34,473 nucleotides of DNA from a virus, in the IMG/VR virus record IMGVR_UViG_3300043435_000278, positions 1 through 34,473 of that record. One strand, written 5' to 3'. Position numbers and translations under genes: made by a program. Position 1 is the stretch's first letter; each line of letters starts with the position of its first letter. Shown piece after piece: positions 5,191 through 23,022 of the stretch. The notes beneath the pieces are model-generated. The model searched no databases and was not told the origin of the DNA. It saw nothing but the letters and a program-made list of their open reading frames with translations.

Positions 5191-6413
5191 GTACATTAAC
5201 AGCACAGATACAATTAAGAAGAGATACATCGGCAAATTGGACTACTAACAATCCGATATTATTAGCAGGTGAAGTTGCATTTACAAGTGATGTATTTTAT
5301 ACAGGCACAGATCAACAAAGATTTAAAATAGGTGACGGAGTTCAAACATGGTTACAATTAGATTACGTTCCTGAGGGAGGAGCAAGTGCTTATCCTGAAA
5401 ACTTATTTTTAACAGTTATAAATAAGACTACTGATAATCTTTTAGCAAGTGACTATAAAGTTTTAAAAGTAATTACTGCGCAAGGTGGAAGATTAGCTGT
5501 TGATTATGCTTTAGCGGATAGTGATGCAAATAGTGCTGATACGATTGGAGTTGTTTATGAAAATATAAATAATAATCAAGAGGGCAGAATAATTACAATC
5601 GGTGAAATAACAGGAATAAACACTACGGGTAATTTACAAGGTGAAACGTGGGCAGACGGTGACTCATTATTTCTTAGTGATACTATTGATGGCGGAATAA
5701 CTAATATTAGGCCGACTGCACCTAACCATGGAGTTCGTTTGGGTTATGTAGTTAATGTAAATGCTAACAATGGTAAAATTTATGTTAAGATTGATAACGG
5801 ATATGAATTAACGGAAATTCATGATATTTACGCACCAACACCAACAAATAATGATGGGATATTTTGGAGTTCAGGAACGACACGTTATGAAAATAAAAGC
5901 ATTGCAACTGTTTTAGGTTATACAGCTGAAAACGTATCTAATAAATCAAGTTCATTTACATCAAGCTCAACAACTACCTATGCAAATACAAAAGCATTAG
6001 TAGATGGACTTGCTACAAAACCTATTATTTTGTTTGCTCAAATGCAATCAATTAATCCAGCTGATGCTACTATTTATTTTTTTGGAAACATACCATTTAC
6101 ACCATCTAATGCATTACCGGGTTCAAGGTTTATTCCTATTCCTCAAAACATGACTCTAAATCAAATAATACTAACGATAAGGTGTGTGCCAGGAAGTAAT
6201 GAAGCAACAACATTTTCACTTTATAAAAATGGTTCTTTATTAGGTTCTTTGCCAACAACTGTTGATTTTTCAATAGCAAATCAAATGGTAATGCAAAGTA
6301 ATCTTAATTATTCATTAGTGGCAGGAGATTATTTAGAAATATCATTTGTTAATACATGGACTACAACAAATCCAACAGGAGTAGTAATAGCAGCGCAATT
6401 AATAGGAATATGA
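5187..6413 (+). CDS. Tail fibre / receptor-binding protein
   Basis: The N-terminus, IQLRRDTSANWTTNNPILLA followed by GEVAFTSD and FKIGDGVQTWLQL, is the virion-anchoring domain seen at the start of many phage tail fibres (Mtd N-terminal type). A middle part of ~70-280 has repeated Asn/Gly-rich beta units, and the last ~130 residues (from ILFAQMQSINPADATIYFFG) look like a beta-sandwich tip. It is 408 residues long. It probably contacts the host surface. Three further small tail genes follow with minimal spacing, as expected for a fibre module. Confidence 0.7.
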   Translation: MSTLTAQIQLRRDTSANWTTNNPILLAGEVAFTSDVFYTGTDQQRFKIGDGVQTWLQLDYVPEGGASAYPENLFLTVINKTTDNLLASDYKVLKVITAQGGRLAVDYALADSDANSADTIGVVYENINNNQEGRIITIGEITGINTTGNLQGETWADGDSLFLSDTIDGGITNIRPTAPNHGVRLGYVVNVNANNGKIYVKIDNGYELTEIHDIYAPTPTNNDGIFWSSGTTRYENKSIATVLGYTAENVSNKSSSFTSSSTTTYANTKALVDGLATKPIILFAQMQSINPADATIYFFGNIPFTPSNALPGSRFIPIPQNMTLNQIILTIRCVPGSNEATTFSLYKNGSLLGSLPTTVDFSIANQMVMQSNLNYSLVAGDYLEISFVNTWTTTNPTGVVIAAQLIGI

Positions 6414-15326: not shown

Positions 15327-15540
15327 ATCATTAGATTACTATGTAATTAAATTGATTAAGACTAATAAAAACGGAATACCTGACTTATTATGTTTAAAAG
15401 ATGGCACTGGCTTTTTTATAGAGGTTAAAAGTGAAAAAGGAATAGTAAGTCCATTACAGAAATATAGGCATGAAGAATTAACTAAATACGGATTTGAAAC
15501 AATAATACAAAGAGACGATAACTTAAAACCTTTAAAATGA
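15280..15540 (+). CDS. VRR-NUC domain nuclease
   Basis: A stand-alone VRR-NUC domain of 86 residues, PD-(D/E)xK fold. Key residues: E4, GIPDLL (D35), IEVK (E48, K50) and SPLQ (Q60), all in the expected order and spacing. Stand-alone copies in phages follow helicases and are thought to cut branched DNA. It overlaps the helicase gene by 47 nt. Confidence 0.85.
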   Translation: MILESKIQAKIIKYYESLDYYVIKLIKTNKNGIPDLLCLKDGTGFFIEVKSEKGIVSPLQKYRHEELTKYGFETIIQRDDNLKPLK

Positions 15541-15541
15541 T

Positions 15542-15656
15542 GTTATGGATTGGCGGACTTGAATGTGTGGCAGGTAAGGCGCACACCGCACAGGTAAGGT
15601 TGGGAACACCTATATTTAACCCGACATTATCCGCCTTACATAACATAACGTTATGT
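15542..15656 (+). repeat. GC-rich hairpin segment with palindrome and direct repeat
   Basis: Unlike its surroundings, this stretch is about half G+C. GTTATG...GGCGGA (15542-15557) pairs with TCCGCC...CATAAC (15630-15644) across 72 nt. CAGGTAAGG occurs twice, 20 bp apart (15571, 15591). ACATAACGTTATGT (15643-15656) is a perfect 14-bp palindrome. A 50-codon frame (15537-15689) runs through it but looks incidental. The segment resembles a foreign insert. Confidence 0.5.
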
Positions 15657-15779
15657 GGCTTTGTGATGTTGCCGAAAAAACACACCTAAAACTTTAAATT
15701 TAATACAGATTATGCAAGTACAAGAACGACTTGAAAATAAACCAAAAGTAGGCAATAGCACAAAACCGATGTTAGGTGC
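15656..15779 (+). repeat. Imperfect inverted repeat over the methyltransferase start, ending in GTTAGGTGC
   Basis: Left arm TGGCTTTGTGATGTTGCC (15656-15673) and right arm GGCAATAGCACAAAACCG (15751-15768) match at 14 of 18 positions, 16 with G-U pairs. GTTAGGTGC follows at 15771-15779. The methyltransferase ATG lies between the arms. A related element lies before the next gene. Confidence 0.5.
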
Positions 15780-16860
15780 AGTTCCTGTTCACAAATTTCC
15801 TTACAATTGGAATTTAAAAGATGCAAACTTTACAAAAGACAAAGGCAAGGTATTTAGTTGTTTTGCTTGTGGTGGTGGTTCAACAATGGGTTATAAATTG
15901 GCTGGATTTGATGTAATAGGACACAATGATATTGATAAAAAAATGATTGAAGTTTATAAAGCAAATCATAACCCTAAATATTCATTTTTAGAAAGTATTA
16001 CAACTTTTGCAAAAAGAAAGGATTTACCAAAAGAACTTTACGAACTTGATATTTTAGATGGTTCGCCACCTTGTAGCAGTTTTTCAATGGCTGGAAATAG
16101 AGAAAAAGACTGGGGCAAAGAAAAGGTGTTTAGAGAGGGACAGGCTATGCAAGTTTTAGATACTTTATTCTTTGATTTTATAGATTTAGCAAAAGAGTTA
16201 CAACCAAAAGTAGTAGTTGCTGAGAATGTAAAAGGATTGTTATTGGGAAATGCAATTGATTATGTGCGTAAAATTTATAAGGCGTTTGATGAAGCTGGGT
16301 ATTATTGTCAACATTTTTTATTAAATGCTTCAAAAATGGGAGTGCCACAACGGAGAGAGAGAGTCTTTTTTGTATGTTTACGAAAAGATTTAGCACCAAA
16401 ATTTCTTGAAAGTATAGATATGTTTACTGAACTACCTAAAATTAAAATGGAATTTAATGATAAAGAAATACCTTTTAAAGATTTTGATAGTGGTAAAACG
16501 GGCAGAAAAATAACAAAATGTATATTAGAATGGTATGACAAAACAGATATAGGTGAATCAGTAGGTAATTGCATAAGAAGACACGGATTTAAAGAAAAAT
16601 TATTTTCATATTCAAAATTAGATCCTAATAAGCCTTTAAAAACAATTCTTTCAGCTTATGATAGTGGGGAATTTAGACACGACACACCACATTATTTACA
16701 CGAAGAAGATATAATTAAGGGTGGAAGTTATCCAACAGATTATAATTTTTTAGATGTTAAACCTAAATACCTTGTAGGTATGAGTGTCCCACCTTTAATG
16801 ACAAAAAGAATAGCAGTAGAAATATATAATCAATGGTTAAGTAAAATATCATTAGTATAG
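15712..16860 (+). CDS. C5-cytosine DNA methyltransferase
   Basis: The 382-residue protein has the expected order of motifs: I FSCFACGGGSTMGYKLAGFD (48-67), IV DGSPPCSSFSMAG with catalytic C121, VI AENVKG (170-175), VIII QRRERVFF (213-220) and a C-terminal motif X GMSVPPLMTKRIAVEIYNQW. The specificity region is at ~225-350. It should make 5-methylcytosine. No restriction enzyme is beside it, so protection of phage DNA from host restriction is the likely role. Its first ~25 residues share the (M/L)LGAV pattern with the next gene product and lie inside an inverted-repeat element, suggesting the gene came as a cassette. Confidence 0.9.
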   Translation: MQVQERLENKPKVGNSTKPMLGAVPVHKFPYNWNLKDANFTKDKGKVFSCFACGGGSTMGYKLAGFDVIGHNDIDKKMIEVYKANHNPKYSFLESITTFAKRKDLPKELYELDILDGSPPCSSFSMAGNREKDWGKEKVFREGQAMQVLDTLFFDFIDLAKELQPKVVVAENVKGLLLGNAIDYVRKIYKAFDEAGYYCQHFLLNASKMGVPQRRERVFFVCLRKDLAPKFLESIDMFTELPKIKMEFNDKEIPFKDFDSGKTGRKITKCILEWYDKTDIGESVGNCIRRHGFKEKLFSYSKLDPNKPLKTILSAYDSGEFRHDTPHYLHEEDIIKGGSYPTDYNFLDVKPKYLVGMSVPPLMTKRIAVEIYNQWLSKISLV

Positions 16861-16888
16861 AGCGTGGGAAAATTTTATCCTAATTGAG

Positions 16889-17010
16889 CATAACGGATTG
16901 CAGATTGGCGTTGTTGCCTCACAAATGTTTAATTGAAACACTAAATTTAATAATATGGAAAATGATAATTTGAAAACGGAAAGCAATAACGCCAATGTGC
17001 TGTTAGGTGC
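16889..17010 (+). repeat. Second imperfect inverted-repeat element, ending in GTTAGGTGC
   Basis: The segment starts with CATAACG, as does the end of the GC-rich segment before the methyltransferase. ATTGGCGTTGTTGC (16904-16917) pairs with GCAATAACGCCAAT (16983-16996) at 13 of 14 positions, 14 with a G-U pair, with 65 nt between. GTTAGGTGC follows at 17002-17010. As in the first element, TAAATTTAATA and a start codon lie between the arms. Confidence 0.55.
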
Positions 17011-17230
17011 TGTAAAATGTGCGGAGGGGTGGCATGATGGCTCATGTTGTTGTAACTGCAAAAATCAAATTGAACTATTTAAACACCCTTGGAATAAGGT
17101 AAACAAAGGCTCAATTATGGAAAGCACCGAAATGTATGCCTGTATAAGTCAATTTGATTGCGATAAGGAATACAAGGGGATAATATTTGAAAATAAACAT
17201 GGTATGTGTGAGATGCACGTGCGTAGGTGA
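16955..17230 (+). CDS. Cys-rich small protein (91 residues)
   Basis: The product carries GWHDGSCCCNCKNQ (residues ~29-42), then a conserved-looking HPWNK...GSI block, YACISQFDCD and GMCEMH, for eight Cys and several His, enough for one or two metal sites. I remember similar Cys-rich proteins as scattered accessory genes in Bacteroidota genomes. Its N-terminus shares LLGAV with the methyltransferase and is encoded in the repeat element. It has no membrane segment. The function is unknown; a zinc protein is an inference. Confidence 0.6.
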   Translation: MENDNLKTESNNANVLLGAVKCAEGWHDGSCCCNCKNQIELFKHPWNKVNKGSIMESTEMYACISQFDCDKEYKGIIFENKHGMCEMHVRR

Positions 17231-17237
17231 TTTTATT

Positions 17238-17246
17238 GCACCTAAC
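17238..17246 (+). repeat. GCACCTAAC, inverted copy of GTTAGGTGC
   Basis: Located 7 nt after the stop of the Cys-rich gene. It is the exact reverse complement of the nonamer at 15771 and 17002, so GTTAGGTGC and GCACCTAAC bracket the Cys-rich gene body. This gives the segment a mobile-cassette outline. Confidence 0.5.
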
Positions 17247-17321
17247 TTACATATTTGCGAATATTTATAGCGACTTATTTAACATCAAAACAATTAGAAT
17301 ATCAAATAATTAAAATTATTA

Positions 17322-17501
17322 ATGACAAACATGATAAAAGAATATATTTTAAAAGTATACAGAAACAATCTTTTAATTGATTTAATATACTTTAATACAA
17401 GACAGGAAATGGATAAATATATTGAAGAAAACAATCTTTTATTCAAAGTTTATTTAATGAAAAAAAATGTAAAATATTACTCATACGATTATAATTTATA
17501 A
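17322..17501 (+). CDS. Small protein of unknown function (59 residues)
   Basis: A frame with ATG, 59 codons and TAA. The product is basic with many Tyr/Asn (YILKVYRNNLLIDLIYFNTR, EENNLLFKVYLMKKNVKYYS), likely strand-helix-strand, without a membrane segment or Cys. Composition is like other small early genes here. A second ATG lies 9 nt downstream. No family is recognised. Confidence 0.5.
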   Translation: MTNMIKEYILKVYRNNLLIDLIYFNTRQEMDKYIEENNLLFKVYLMKKNVKYYSYDYNL

Positions 17502-17713: not shown

Positions 17714-18207
17714 ATATAACCGACCTGCTTACTGATAAAAAGTATTTGCAAATAAGCAGGAACGTCTGTCGAAATCATAACTTGTTACATGATTTACACT
17801 CAGAAGCTATTTTAGTTATATTGGAGAAAAAAGTAGATATTAACACTATTAGAAACTTAGAGCATTACTTTTCAACTGTTGTTTGGATGACCTGGCACTC
17901 AAACAAGTTTAAAAAAAAATACCTTAATGATTTTTTGGAGTTCTTTGAATATTACGATTATGACTTGATAGATGAAAGCATTGAACATTCAGACTTTACA
18001 CCAGCTTATAACTTTATTGATCGTGAGCCAAAAACAGATACTGAATACTACGAAATCAATTTATTCAAGTTATATTTAGAATTAGGATCTATTCAGGCAG
18101 TAAGTAGGAAAACAAAGATACCTTACCAAACAGTATTTTACGATTTAAAACAAATAAAAGAGCAAATAATAAATGATAAAACTTTTAATCAAAGCGAACC
18201 TGAGTAA
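17710..18207 (+). CDS. Sigma-factor-like transcription regulator
   Basis: The 165-residue protein resembles a small phage sigma/RinA-type regulator: an N-terminal region with HDLHSEAILVILEK and FSTVVWMTWHSNKFKKKY (like region 2), a Tyr/Asp-rich linker, and a C-terminal HTH, SIQAVSRKTKIPYQTVFYDL followed by KQIKEQI (~127-153), like region 4. It has its own host-type promoter. It is a good candidate for the switch to late genes. It overlaps the sugar genes by 35 nt, so it may also be coupled to them. Confidence 0.6.
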   Translation: MNITDLLTDKKYLQISRNVCRNHNLLHDLHSEAILVILEKKVDINTIRNLEHYFSTVVWMTWHSNKFKKKYLNDFLEFFEYYDYDLIDESIEHSDFTPAYNFIDREPKTDTEYYEINLFKLYLELGSIQAVSRKTKIPYQTVFYDLKQIKEQIINDKTFNQSEPE

Positions 18208-19216
18208 CTTAAATGGACTATCGTTTCATCGGTTATACGTTCCATTCTCAAAAATAAGCGACTTAAATGAGTTTAAATGCGATGTTTATCCCGACTTATC
18301 AGTATTGAGTGATGCTGAACTTAAAGGCTATGATGCTGTTGTTTATCAACGTGAAATTGATGTACATGGTAACTCACTTGAATTAATTAACAAATATCAC
18401 AAGTTAGGACTAAAAGTAATTTTTGATATTGACGATATGTGGGTGCTACCTCATGACCATTACCTTTACAAAGTATATCAACAATATAAGATAAAGGAGC
18501 AAACAGAAGAAATATTAAAAGCTGTAGACTTAGTTATTACAACCACAAAAGTAATGGCTACCAAAATAAGTAAGTTTAATAAAAAAGTTGAGGTTATTCC
18601 TAACTGCTTAGACTTAGATGATCCACAATGGCAACCTAACAAAATTAAAAGTGATTTAACACGATTTGGTTATGTGGCTGGTGTATTCCATTCAAAAGAT
18701 ATTGGAATCATTCAGCAACCTATTTTAAAAGCATACAGGCATAATTTAAATACAGGTTTTGTTTTAGGTGGTTGGAATAATAATAAAGACTATAACTTTT
18801 ATGAAACTGTAATGAGTGGCAATAACTTCGATATGTTAAAATATAGCCGAGTAAACTCTTTGCCAGTACATGAATACGGTAAGGCTTACAATGATACAGA
18901 TGTTTCATTGATACCTTTACAGAGGAATATTTTCACTGAGTGCAAATCAGAAATTAAACTACTTGAAGCTGGAGCACATAAAAACCCTGCAATAGTTTCA
19001 AACGTGCTACCTTACAACATGTTTCCAAAAGAAACTGCAATATTTGTAGATAACCACGATGTAAATGGCTGGTTTAAAGCAATTAGGAATTTAAGCAAAG
19101 ACAAAGTATTATTTGATGAAAAAAGCAAAGCACTAACTGAATATACAAAACAACATTACAATATAAACAAATGGAGCGAAATCAGAAAACAGATTATAAA
19201 ATCGGCATTGGTGTAA
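18173..19216 (+). CDS. GT-B fold glycosyltransferase (GT4-like)
   Basis: A 347-residue glycosyltransferase. The first half has Rossmann-like strands (YDAVVYQR, GLKVIFDIDDMW ~83-94, VDLVITTTKVMATKISK) and VEVIPNCLD ~140-148. The second half carries FGYVAGVFHSKD, then the donor site region SLIPLQRNIFTECKSEIKLLE with the E-x7-E type pattern and NPAIVSN. It probably transfers a sugar from a nucleotide-sugar donor to a surface or virion glycan. Acceptor and sugar are unknown. Confidence 0.75.
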   Translation: MIKLLIKANLSNLNGLSFHRLYVPFSKISDLNEFKCDVYPDLSVLSDAELKGYDAVVYQREIDVHGNSLELINKYHKLGLKVIFDIDDMWVLPHDHYLYKVYQQYKIKEQTEEILKAVDLVITTTKVMATKISKFNKKVEVIPNCLDLDDPQWQPNKIKSDLTRFGYVAGVFHSKDIGIIQQPILKAYRHNLNTGFVLGGWNNNKDYNFYETVMSGNNFDMLKYSRVNSLPVHEYGKAYNDTDVSLIPLQRNIFTECKSEIKLLEAGAHKNPAIVSNVLPYNMFPKETAIFVDNHDVNGWFKAIRNLSKDKVLFDEKSKALTEYTKQHYNINKWSEIRKQIIKSALV

Positions 19217-19803
19217 CAACAACACCAAACAGATCAGAATACATTGATACCTGGAGGAAAAACTTTGAAAAGGTTAAGCCTAAACACTATCATTTACACA
19301 TTCATGAAGATGTAAGTTATAAAGGAGTTGCTTATTCAAAGAATCAAAATCTTAAAACTTTGAAAGATTGCGATTACATTTTTCTATTTGACGATGACTG
19401 TTACCCAATTAAAGAGGGATGGGCAGAATACTTTATAAACTCAAACGAACAACATTTATTATTCTTAAATCATACTCATAAGGTTTTAGCACGTACAGGA
19501 AACGTGGAACACTTTAACGATTGCGGTGGAGTGTTTATGTTTATAACAAGCGAAGTATTAAATAAAGTTGGTTATATTAACTCAGCTTATGGACGTTATG
19601 GATTTGAACATGCTGGCTACTCTAATCCATAACCTTATCAACAATTAGTAAATACTAAGAAATATCTTTATGCTATGGATTATAGCATAAAACATAGAAG
19701 CTCATTAACTGATGAAGAAAAAATAAATGAAATAAAAAAAAATAGTAAAATATTTGTCAATGAATTAAATGATAAAAACTATTTTATTAAATTTGAAGAA
19801 TGA
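19171..19803 (+). pseudogene. GT-A glycosyltransferase interrupted by an in-frame TAA
   Basis: The frame from 19171 encodes 153 residues (GIGVTTTPNRSEYI; DDD at 74-76 in YIFLFDDDCYP; FNDCGGVFMFITSEVLNKVG; GRYGFEHAGYS), then TAA at 19630-19632. The same frame stays open for a further 56 codons (LVNTKKYLYAMDYSIKHRSS, EEKINEIKKN, NYFIKFEE) to a TGA at 19801 that overlaps the next start by ATGA. So the original gene was 210 codons plus one, broken by one stop. The N-terminal part holds the DDD site and could still work. TAA is a normal stop elsewhere here, so recoding is not expected. Confidence 0.75.
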
Positions 19804-20492
19804 AAATACTTTTTAAGTTAGCAACACGATCAAGACCAGAAAAAGCACGTGCAAGTATTAATAACATTATAAGTAATTGTAATTCAAACCAATATCAAAT
19901 ATTAGTTTCAGTTGATAAAGATGATGAAACAATGCAAGGCTTCGACCACGAACATGAATCAGTATTTATGGTTGATGGTACTTCAAAAAATAAAATAGAT
20001 GCTATAAATCGTGACATTGAACTTATTGACGATTGGGATATTTTAATCAATACTTCAGATGACATGCTTTTTTTACATCGTGGATTTGATACAATTATCA
20101 GGCAAGATTTTAAAAGGCATTTGGATCAGGTACTACATTACTCTGATGGTAATCAACATTCAAACATAATGACAATGAGCATAATGGGTAGAGCCTATTA
20201 TGAAAGGTTTGGTTACGTTTATCATCCTGACTATAAATCACTTTGGTGTGATGCAGAAGCTACAGAAGTAGCATGGTTAATGAATAAGTATGAATACATG
20301 GGTGACTTAAAGGTATTATTTAGACACATGCATCCTGCGTGGGGATTGGCAGAATACGATGAACAATATCGTAAAACAGAAAGTCAGGAGCTTTGGGATA
20401 ACGATTACCGAGTATTTAAAGAACGCAAAACGAGAAACTACGATATACCAGACCATTTAATAATTAATCCACCTAAATACTACAATGTATAG
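19800..20492 (+). CDS. GT-A fold glycosyltransferase
   Basis: The 230-residue protein starts with a typical GT-A entry, FKLATRSRPEKARASINNII, then YQILVSVDKDDETM and a metal-site DD at 87-88 in NTSDDMLFLHRGF. GRAYYERFGYVYHPDYKSLW marks the acceptor half with an acidic CDAEATEVAWL helix. It overlaps the FkbM-type gene by 8 nt. The substrate is unknown; the DxD-like position makes the class likely. Confidence 0.7.
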   Translation: MKILFKLATRSRPEKARASINNIISNCNSNQYQILVSVDKDDETMQGFDHEHESVFMVDGTSKNKIDAINRDIELIDDWDILINTSDDMLFLHRGFDTIIRQDFKRHLDQVLHYSDGNQHSNIMTMSIMGRAYYERFGYVYHPDYKSLWCDAEATEVAWLMNKYEYMGDLKVLFRHMHPAWGLAEYDEQYRKTESQELWDNDYRVFKERKTRNYDIPDHLIINPPKYYNV

Positions 20493-21084
20493 TCAAAACA
20501 ATGAAGAGCAAGTAATATTAGATTACTTTGGCAATAAGATAGGTAATTTACTTGACATCGGAGCAAACGATGGGATTACTTTATCAAACAGCAGAAAATT
20601 AATTGAATTAGGATGGAGCGGTGACTTAATAGAGCCATCACCTACTGCCTTTGCAAAACTAAAAAAGTTATATTCAAGAAAGAAAAAAGTAAATACTCAT
20701 AATATTGCTTTATGTGATGTTAGTGGTAAAATGAAATTTTATGAAAGTGGAACTCATTTAAATAATGGAGATACTGATTTATTATCTACTTTATCATTAA
20801 CAGATAAACAGAAATGGGAATCAACAACTGAGTATACAGAAACAGAAGTAAATGCATTAACCTGGAATGATTTTCAAACAGGTAAACTTTATGACTTTAT
20901 AAATATAGATGCTGAGGGATATGATCTAATAATTTTAAAGCAATTAGATTTATTTGACTTAGGATGCTCATGCCTATGTATTGAACATAATGGCAAAATA
21001 CTTAATCAGATATTGGAAGAAGTTAAAAAGTATAATATGAGAATAATATCTCAGAATTTGGAAAATGTAATTTTGGCAATATGA
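20485..21084 (+). CDS. FkbM-family SAM-dependent methyltransferase
   Basis: The SAM site is clear: motif I LLDIGANDG (22-30), IEPSP (49-53) as the acidic loop after strand 2, IALCDVSG (74-81) and FINIDAEGYD (138-147) as the FkbM catalytic strand. It is 199 residues, usual for the family. FkbM enzymes O-methylate sugars or polyketides; in this sugar operon a glycan acceptor is likely. It overlaps both neighbours. Confidence 0.85.
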   Translation: MYSQNNEEQVILDYFGNKIGNLLDIGANDGITLSNSRKLIELGWSGDLIEPSPTAFAKLKKLYSRKKKVNTHNIALCDVSGKMKFYESGTHLNNGDTDLLSTLSLTDKQKWESTTEYTETEVNALTWNDFQTGKLYDFINIDAEGYDLIILKQLDLFDLGCSCLCIEHNGKILNQILEEVKKYNMRIISQNLENVILAI

Positions 21085-21743
21085 AAGATATTTTTAAATA
21101 CATTGAAGATATTATAAATTCAAAAGATAAATTATTAATATTTGAATTTGGAATGTGTGATGCACATCATTCATATAAAATCATGGATTTAATTCAAAGT
21201 AATAAAACTTTTGAATATTATGGATTTGAGCCTGTAGATTATTTATACAATCAAATCAAAGATTATAAAAAAGATTATCAAAATGGTTCGTTCACTATTG
21301 TAAATAAAGCAATAGGAGATAAAGATGGATTGGTTGATTTTTATCAAAGTGGTGGACAAAAAATAGTTGATGGGATAAACACAGAAAATTATTATGGCAG
21401 TTCATCAATCAATGAACCTAAAGAAGTTTTAACATATTGGCCAGAAATGACTTTTGAGAAAAAACAAATTGAATCTATAAAGTTTGATACTTATGTAAAA
21501 GAAAATAATTTAAATGATAGAGTAATTGATTTTATTTGGGCAGACATTCAAGGTGCTGAGATAAACTTAATTAAAGGAGGTAAAAACACTTTTAAAAATG
21601 TAAAATATTTTTATACTGAATATTCAAATGGTAATTTATACAAAGGAGATAAAGGTTTAAAAGGTATATTAAAGCTATTGCCTAATTTTGAAATAGAATG
21701 TGATTATCAAGGTGATGTACTTCTAAAAAATAAATATTTATGA
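21081..21743 (+). CDS. Second FkbM-type methyltransferase
   Basis: A 220-residue relative of the previous gene: LIFEFGMCDAHHSYKIMDLI in place of motif I, YYGFEP as the acidic loop, TIVNKAIGDKDGLVDFYQSG and WADIQGAEINLIKGG, the FkbM DxQGAE signature. Motif I is degenerate (FGMCDAHHS instead of GxxxG), so SAM binding may differ. The duplication of FkbM genes suggests two methylation positions on the same glycan. Confidence 0.75.
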   Translation: MKDIFKYIEDIINSKDKLLIFEFGMCDAHHSYKIMDLIQSNKTFEYYGFEPVDYLYNQIKDYKKDYQNGSFTIVNKAIGDKDGLVDFYQSGGQKIVDGINTENYYGSSSINEPKEVLTYWPEMTFEKKQIESIKFDTYVKENNLNDRVIDFIWADIQGAEINLIKGGKNTFKNVKYFYTEYSNGNLYKGDKGLKGILKLLPNFEIECDYQGDVLLKNKYL

Positions 21744-22321
21744 TATTATCAATACTTATTCCAACTGTTCCACAAAGAGCAAGACTTTATTTAGAACTAA
21801 TCACAGAACTAAATAATCAAATAGAAATGGCTAATGCCTTCGGACTTGTTGAAGTTATTACAGATGATGCACCGGTAGGAGCAAAAACAACAGGACAAAA
21901 GAGAAACGATTTAATAATGTCGGCACAGGGTAAATATGTTTGGTTTATTGATGATGATGACATGATAATGCCGAATGCTATTAATAACATACTGCCTGCA
22001 TTAGAACTTAATCCTGATGCTTTGGCTATCAATGGAATAATGACTACAGATGGCAATAATATGAAACAATGGTATATCAGTAAAGACTTTGAATATAGAG
22101 CAGACTTTACAAAAGGATTTGAAATATACATAAGACCGACAAACCACATAACACCGGTTAAAAGAGAAATAGCAAAACAAGTTAAATTCAAGAATCAATC
22201 TAACTTTGAAGATTATGAGTATTGCATGGAACTTAAAAACTTAGGATTGGTTAAAACAGAAGTAGAAATAAAAGAAGCTGTTTATCATTACAGATATATT
22301 TCAACTAATAAATTATATTAA
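21740..22321 (+). CDS. Family 2 (GT-A) glycosyltransferase
   Basis: This is a standard GT2 core of 193 residues: SILIPTVPQRARLYLELITE, TDDAPVGAKTTGQKRNDLIM, the metal site FIDDDDM (D71-D74) and an acceptor-side NFEDYEYCMELKNLG with the ED pair. It lacks a membrane segment. Overlaps of 4 nt upstream and 1 nt downstream place it in the sugar operon. Confidence 0.8.
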   Translation: MILSILIPTVPQRARLYLELITELNNQIEMANAFGLVEVITDDAPVGAKTTGQKRNDLIMSAQGKYVWFIDDDDMIMPNAINNILPALELNPDALAINGIMTTDGNNMKQWYISKDFEYRADFTKGFEIYIRPTNHITPVKREIAKQVKFKNQSNFEDYEYCMELKNLGLVKTEVEIKEAVYHYRYISTNKLY

Positions 22322-23022
22322 TGAAAATTGCCTTTTGCACATACGCAAGTAAATGTTATAAGTATTCTTACGCAGATGCTGATCGTTATTTTCATTATGC
22401 CGATAGATTAAAAGAATCATTAAAAGGTGTTGATTTTCATTTATTTACTGAAAATAACCTTAAACATCCTGGACATGCAAACTTACCTTATTCATTTAAA
22501 CCTTATGCTATTCAGCAACTTAGGAAAGATTATGACATAGTAGTGTGGGCAGATAGTTGTGTTTATTCAATTAAAGACTTAAACAAGTTTATTGAATACA
22601 TAAATATAAATGGATTTGTATTTTTTGATAATTTAGGCTACACAATCGGAGATTACACTTCAGACCAGTGCTTAACTAATTTTAACATGGATAGAAAAGA
22701 ATCCTTTGAGCACCCTATGATAATGGCTTGCTTAATGGGATTTAACTTTAAAAATCATTTAGCTACTAAATTATTCAATGAGTATTTTAAAGCAACTCAA
22801 ACATACGGAAACTATGAAGGAGACTGGACTAATGAATCAAATCAAGTTAGTAAAGATAACAGGGTAAAAGGACACCGACATGATCAATCAGTCATGAGTA
22901 TTATTTTAGCAAAAGAGAAAATAAAACCTTTACACCCTCATTCCACATTCTTTGCTTATTTTGGTAATCCAGGTCACTTACCTCATGCAGAATCAGTTTG
23001 TTTACTTAGTCAAGGATATTAA
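22321..23022 (+). CDS. Glycosyltransferase-like protein (GT-A, GT8-like outline)
   Basis: The 233-residue protein has FCTYAS at the first strand, SFKPYAIQQLRKDYDIVVWA leading into DS at 78-79 (WADS as DxD-like site), FFDNLGYTIGDYTS and the C-terminal GHRHDQSVMSIILAKEKI block typical of GT-A enzymes of the galactosyl type. The function is assigned by these motifs and the operon. It ends 1 nt into the next gene. Confidence 0.65.
   Translation: MKIAFCTYASKCYKYSYADADRYFHYADRLKESLKGVDFHLFTENNLKHPGHANLPYSFKPYAIQQLRKDYDIVVWADSCVYSIKDLNKFIEYININGFVFFDNLGYTIGDYTSDQCLTNFNMDRKESFEHPMIMACLMGFNFKNHLATKLFNEYFKATQTYGNYEGDWTNESNQVSKDNRVKGHRHDQSVMSIILAKEKIKPLHPHSTFFAYFGNPGHLPHAESVCLLSQGY

Follow-up and report, generated by a model that had tools for sequence, protein, structure and literature searches.

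A putative integron-type cassette block with genes starting inside attC-like hairpins in a Bacteroidota-type phage

Analysis of a Bacteroidota-type phage sequence with terminase, portal and virion genes (the whole IMG/VR record of 34,473 bases, referred to here as the window) indicates that a block of genes at one site very probably consists of two integron-type cassettes standing at an attI-like site, with genes that are reversed and start within a hairpin, shuffled by a recombinase related to IntI. The block, situated between a VRR-NUC gene and a small ORF, contains a C5-cytosine methyltransferase gene followed by the gene of a 91-residue cysteine-rich protein (Table 1). It is CALIN-like, with two cassettes and no recombinase: the CALIN criterion (at least two attC sites, no integrase nearby) is met by the window, with the reservation that the record may be incomplete. 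The initial annotation had proposed an integron-like system, perhaps with a recombinase supplied in trans. This reading is supported by the present analysis, and the lack of any PF00589 match in the 34-kb record fits it.

Table 1. Features of the cassette block and its neighbourhood in the window
Feature	Position	Strand	Remarks
VRR-NUC gene	ends 15540		left neighbour of the block
Left flank of insertion site, ATGATGTTATGGAT	15537..15550	+	common to the empty site of L263/L267 and the occupied sites of L179 and L264
"Cassette 0", stretch without ORF	15551..15645	+	possibly a gene-less cassette or remnant
Element 1, attC-like hairpin TAACG...GTTA	15646..15774	+	loop holds the methyltransferase start codon
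C5-cytosine DNA methyltransferase, cassette 1 cargo	15712..16860	+	PF00145 E 4.3e-45; PHROG 116
Element 2, attC-like hairpin	16891..17005	+	Cys-rich gene starts in the loop
91-aa Cys-rich protein, cassette 2 cargo	16955..17230	+	tag MENDNLKTESNNANVLL from element 2
Cassette 2 end, GCACCTAAC	17238..17246	+	complement of its own start GTTAGGTGC at 17002
Right flank of insertion site (attI-like side)	17247..17280	+	kept in L179 and L263-L268
Small ORF	at 17322		right neighbour of the block

Both elements, the two copies of GTTAGGTGC (15771-15779 and 17002-17010), GCACCTAAC, TAAATTTAATA and the two start codons inside the elements have been located where the initial annotation had reported them. 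The bounds of the elements, given there as 15656-15779 and 16889-17010, have been corrected to run from TAACG to GTTA, with lengths of about 115-129 bases, and the start of the block has been moved from 15540 to about 15551. The significance of the proposed hairpins differs between the elements: the arms of element 2 (18 nt) are 89% complementary, the pairing of GTTAGGTGC with GCACCTAAC reaches 17 nt (88%), and the sense single DNA strand of element 2 beats all 200 shuffles in folding (z -3.8), whereas element 1 alone, as a single DNA strand, folds no better than shuffles (z -0.25). The covariance model R1, for which 28 elements from other contigs were used and the window was left out, matched element 1 with 81.0 bits (E 4.9e-17) and element 2 with 70.2 bits (E 1.3e-14) in a 2-kb region with the filters off; under the default cmsearch filters, applied to the whole window, both plus-strand elements were missed. 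The LLGAV-like motif noted earlier is indeed common to both genes, but it merely results from translation of the element's right arm and GTTAGGTGC end. A further GTTAGGTGC is present on the minus strand at 5718-5726 without an element.

The existence of an element family and its variable cargo are documented at the level of sequence. A search of viral contigs with the Cys-rich protein returned some contigs matched over the first 17-25 residues only, and these carry the element of the Cys-rich gene, with its tag, fused to quite different ORFs. Copies of element 2 with about 92-98% identity, fused to different genes, occur in about ten viral contigs, and 82-87% identical copies of element 1 are located before other genes in the Flavobacterium phages filifjonk9-1, snusmum6-1 and 11b. 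Pattern searches of viral contigs revealed tandem arrays of elements. A detector consisting of TAAC, stem and GTTA gave 232 matches compared with 7 in the reversed sequence; after removal of copies, 175 distinct elements were retained from viral contigs and cultured Flavobacterium phages, standing in arrays with varying genes and falling mainly into length classes near 85 and 111-127 bases. The arms of one element match each other with 15.6, against 6.4 for arms swapped between elements (n=175). The arrays meet the integron-array criterion (tandem one-gene cassettes, one hairpin site each, variable cargo). Chance inverted repeats are ruled out by the reversed-sequence and swapped-arm controls, and a known RNA family has been rejected, with no Rfam match above threshold. 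Three expectations formulated in the initial annotation, namely a family detectable by a covariance model, variable cargo and an empty site in related phages, have thus been fulfilled: R1 matches the window elements as well as dozens at other phage loci, one and the same element precedes very different genes, and related phages possess an empty site as well as other cargo at the window's place.

The window, with its terminase and portal genes, and the cultured phages carrying elements are proven phages; the terminase model phrog_2 was found in only 5 of 16 array contigs, so that a phage origin is not established for every contig with an array. R1 was also run on 352 kb of bacterial sequence (loci with pattern matches and flanks of Bacteroidota IntI genes) and gave only one weak match there, and chromosomal relatives of the elements have therefore not been found in this limited sampling. 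Pattern matches in bacterial genome contigs were mostly due to chance, and the examined flanks of Bacteroidota TIGR02249 genes contained no elements of the phage type. The TIGR02249 integron integrase model itself scored above its cut-off in 105 of 395 sampled Bacteroidota genomes (L149-L178).

The insertion site has been found both empty and variably filled. Its right flank is conserved in L179 and L263-L268 whatever cassettes, different or none, stand to the left of it. In L179, which is 95.7% identical upstream, four other cassettes are placed at the window's site between ATGATGTTATGGAT and TAACTTACATCTTTGCG. From this contig the empty site ATGATGTTATGGATATAACTTACAT was predicted beforehand and then found as ATGATGTTATGAATATAACTTACATCTTTGCG in L263 and L267, the flanks of which are 92-93% identical to the window; the empty site there is ATGATGTTATGAATATAAC, with the left flank as in the window. 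At the same place L264 carries the ORF-less stretch and one other cassette, and L265 carries three others, while the whole insertion-site region is absent from L180 and L181. Positions 15509-15644 are 94.9% identical in L264, there ahead of another cassette, and the ORF-less stretch is missing from L179, L263 and L267. This stretch possesses the inverted ends GTTATG..CATAAC and GGCGGA..TCCGCC, in L264 too, and is perhaps a gene-less cassette. Elsewhere in the window, a run of ORFs at 18173-23022 reads like glycosyltransferases and FkbM-type methyltransferases, which is unusual upstream of a terminase.

The cassettes are further characterized by their ends. The five bases after GTTA complement the five before the next TAAC perfectly in 41 of 64 cassettes and in at least four of five positions in 51 of 64, against 1.4% and 8.6%, respectively, for mismatched cassette pairs; the two sides of a single element are complementary in 1 of 64 only. 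This complementarity is the core/inverse-core rule of integron cassettes. The rule is broken (fewer than 4 of 5 paired) in 13 of 64 cassettes; within the window, cassette 2 (GTTAGGTGC..GCACCTAAC) obeys it and cassette 1, which starts with GTTAGGTGC and ends with GAGCATAACG, violates it. The agreement with the GTTRRRY core pointed out in the initial annotation is correct for GTTAGGT of the window, but the family mostly departs from it beyond GTTA (e.g. GTTATAA, GTTAGCA, GTTATGT). The classical core GTTRRRY / RYYYAAC is not met, and the constant part is GTTA/TAAC, with a GTTG/CAAC variant. The stems contain mismatches and G.T pairs, and no consistent bulges of the kind of the classical extrahelical bases have been identified.

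These ends bear on the possibility that the elements are mobile regulatory hairpins, i.e. modules of promoter and start spread between phages by homologous recombination without a site-specific recombinase. This explanation would account for one element standing before many genes, it agrees with the mosaic nature of phages, and neither the window nor any of the five cultured phages searched has yielded a recombinase. It is nevertheless regarded as highly improbable, given the cassette-specific self-complementary ends, the precise empty site, the abrupt junctions with few shared bases, and the tandem arrays that abut a recombinase gene.

Tyrosine recombinases of about 267-275 residues are encoded at array ends in other contigs. 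Twenty such loci were available, and in 16 of them at least two elements are located directly 5' of the recombinase gene; altogether 84 elements share the strand of the recombinase and 4 lie opposite, and the longest open frames are 70 sense and 9 antisense. No element stands between the recombinase and the adjacent cassette gene. The nnnnnTAAC that closes this gene is joined to a conserved TATATTATATATGTAA-like sequence, and TAAC-TATATTATATATGTAA between array and recombinase is conserved in most of the 20 loci and not in the window. Because the recombinase-side gene lacks an element there and ends at a conserved sequence, attI can be placed next to the recombinase gene, on its 5' side, and the integron criterion of an attI beside the integrase gene 5' end, with cassettes inserted there, is met at these loci. 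The attI of the L107 locus is TAACTATATTATATATGTAA; the window's own right-hand site (TAACTTACATATTTGCG) bears only a loose resemblance to the recombinase-side attI. The Flavobacterium phages tooticki and snusmum have one array boundary in common and different last cassettes. At about 6001-6252 of L132, a recombinase fragment (residues 1-84) has cassettes on both sides, as though a growing array had invaded or crossed the gene.

The recombinase-side boundary, together with the linkage between elements and genes, determines the direction of the cassettes. Homologous genes keep their upstream element (0.96-1.00 identity) and differ on the downstream side, as documented in about seven informative pairs. 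Since the hairpin is located at the 5' end of the gene and travels with it, the genes point to attI, opposite to those of classical cassettes, and the classical position of attC, 3' of the gene, does not apply. Of the 175 elements, 147 fold better as the sense strand (p 3e-23). In the integron orientation this gene-sense strand is the bottom strand, which is the best-recombined strand of classical attC sites according to PMC9892861. The classical direction, with attC behind the gene, was the first reading of the arrays and has been rejected in view of the boundary and the linkage. In its full form it would postulate ordinary integron cassettes in which the start of the next gene falls into attC by chance, giving translational fusions. 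That the gene-sense strand is the better folder, that genes are inherited with the upstream and not the downstream element, and that a conserved attI-like sequence replaces the element on the recombinase side of the adjacent gene make this very unlikely, even though hairpin, end rule and array would look alike either way and the longer spacer, on the left arm in gene direction, counts in its favour. It should be added that genes have swapped elements over evolution; this requires one more junction, at GTTA, and is not explained by the simple model.

The array recombinases have kept the catalytic motifs, and the alignment demonstrates that the IntI insertions between them are missing; the IntI-with-I2 criterion is not met, and the scores remain below the NCBIfam cut-offs, including TIGR02249. 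In a maximum-likelihood tree these enzymes are placed beside IntI, apart from Flavobacterium XerC/XerD-like proteins, with support of 95/96; an unrelated long-branch recombinase (L111) falls outside, and the rooting is untested. A second recombinase type (L108) had no other relatives in viral contigs at the sensitivity used. I2 has been described as necessary for cassette capture and as found in no other protein than IntI (PMC7790495). The balance tips slightly towards a phage-borne sister lineage of integrons with an I2-less recombinase and backward, self-starting cassettes, in which case hairpin capture arose, or works, without the I2 helix.

Where a single clear frame crosses GTTA (90 cassettes), the element contains an ATG in that frame in 59 cases; the other frames have one in 35 of 180. 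The distinct starts (n=51) are poor in G and carry A at -3, -6 and -11 to -13, which is the signature of initiation in Flavobacterium johnsoniae (PMC6847099). The Cys-rich gene contains no start codon from GTTA to its conserved domain, and its start is therefore forced inside the element; the unlikeness to normal integron cassettes remarked on in the initial annotation is borne out. For the methyltransferase, the ATG at 15768 is the last one possible ahead of the conserved core, and it still lies within element 1, which encodes the first ~20 residues. Untagged homologues, without an element, begin M-..-H[KR]F.Y.W, and the tooticki homologue has a different element in front and a different tag. 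In tooticki, an N-terminal peptide expected from a start inside an element is MRENISNTDQTK.

The start codons of the loop could also be incidental, with translation starting further downstream, and about one third of the clear frames do lack an in-frame ATG in the element, as do most elements of about 85 nt. This is considered very unlikely, because no ATG, GTG or TTG occurs from GTTA far into the frame in the Cys-rich gene and several other cassettes, and because the main-frame ATG is enriched about threefold in the context of Bacteroidota starts. A promoter in the hairpin loop is likely but has not been shown. The Cys-rich protein has no match in Pfam, PHROG, NCBIfam or PADLOC; its family (CCCNCKNQ...HGMCEMH; window and L025-L034) bears three different tags, or none.

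The preferred explanation, in which cassettes start their own genes and are moved by a recombinase, may be summarized as a mechanism, all activity in which is inferred from sequence. Each cassette consists of an attC-like hairpin and then its gene, and the cassette end complements the start of the gene body (GTTAnnnnn ... nnnnnTAAC), by which the full attC stem is proposed to be restored in the circular cassette. An IntI-related tyrosine recombinase, encoded beside arrays elsewhere and not in the window, probably acts on the hairpins; catalysis, strand and exact cut are inferred, the folded gene-sense strand being presumably recombined into double-stranded attI between TAA and CG (between G and TTA on the other strand). 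Seen from the insertion site the genes run backwards, towards attI, and the translation start, presumably the promoter too, would lie in the attC loop because no platform promoter could serve reversed genes. The cargo, DNA methyltransferases and small proteins, may help the phage against host defence.

A lineage neighbouring IntI, found at attC-like arrays without I2, would make the origin of integrons directly testable, and cassettes with their own start in the recombination site would be a new answer to the question of how captured genes are expressed. Phages that exchange methyltransferase genes and small genes of unknown function at one dedicated site would have a ready system for arms-race genes, and their cassettes offer a lead to many unknown phage proteins.

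Phage integrons and CALINs have already been published, with DNA methyltransferases among the cargo, including Polaribacter phage P12002L (PMC9892861, 2023); this paper counts 17 CALINs and shows that in E. coli IntI1 recombines one P12002L attC into attI1. These CALINs are similar in their attC-like sites, methyltransferase cassettes and phages without integrase. The sites of P12002L (L262, about 29200-40950) obey the end rule, display the GTTG/CAAC variant and have very short hairpins (TCGTTTTAATG loop). Sites of 45-60 bases like those of P12002L are present in L117 too. The main text of PMC9892861 notes divergent attC directions; that main text contains no start codons in attC, no reversed cassettes, no phage attI with empty or variably filled alleles and no I2-less phage recombinase. 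In the open literature, no report was found of arrays in which every gene points to attI and has its start within attC, nor of such arrays accompanied by a recombinase without I2.

Classical and chromosomal integrons share the arrays, the hairpin sites, the complementary cassette ends and the attI by the integrase 5' end. Genes of classical cassettes point away from attI, have attC downstream and usually lack a promoter (PMC8876359, PMC7790495); in contrast, the phage attC precedes the gene and holds its start, the recombinase is devoid of I2, and only GTTA of GTTRRRY is constant. In the atypical integrons of the Treponema type, intI is transcribed towards attI and the genes run away from it (PMC3607928), whereas the phage genes run towards attI, with the recombinase beyond it. 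Own promoters and ORFs in attI or attC are known in other forms (PMC8876359, PMC11014356). In short ORFs of attI1 and attC, such as ORF-11 (PMC8876359), a translation start in a recombination site likewise aids expression; there, a short separate ORF stops and re-initiation follows, whereas in the phage cassettes the start codon in attC is that of the cargo gene, and translation continues through the stem.
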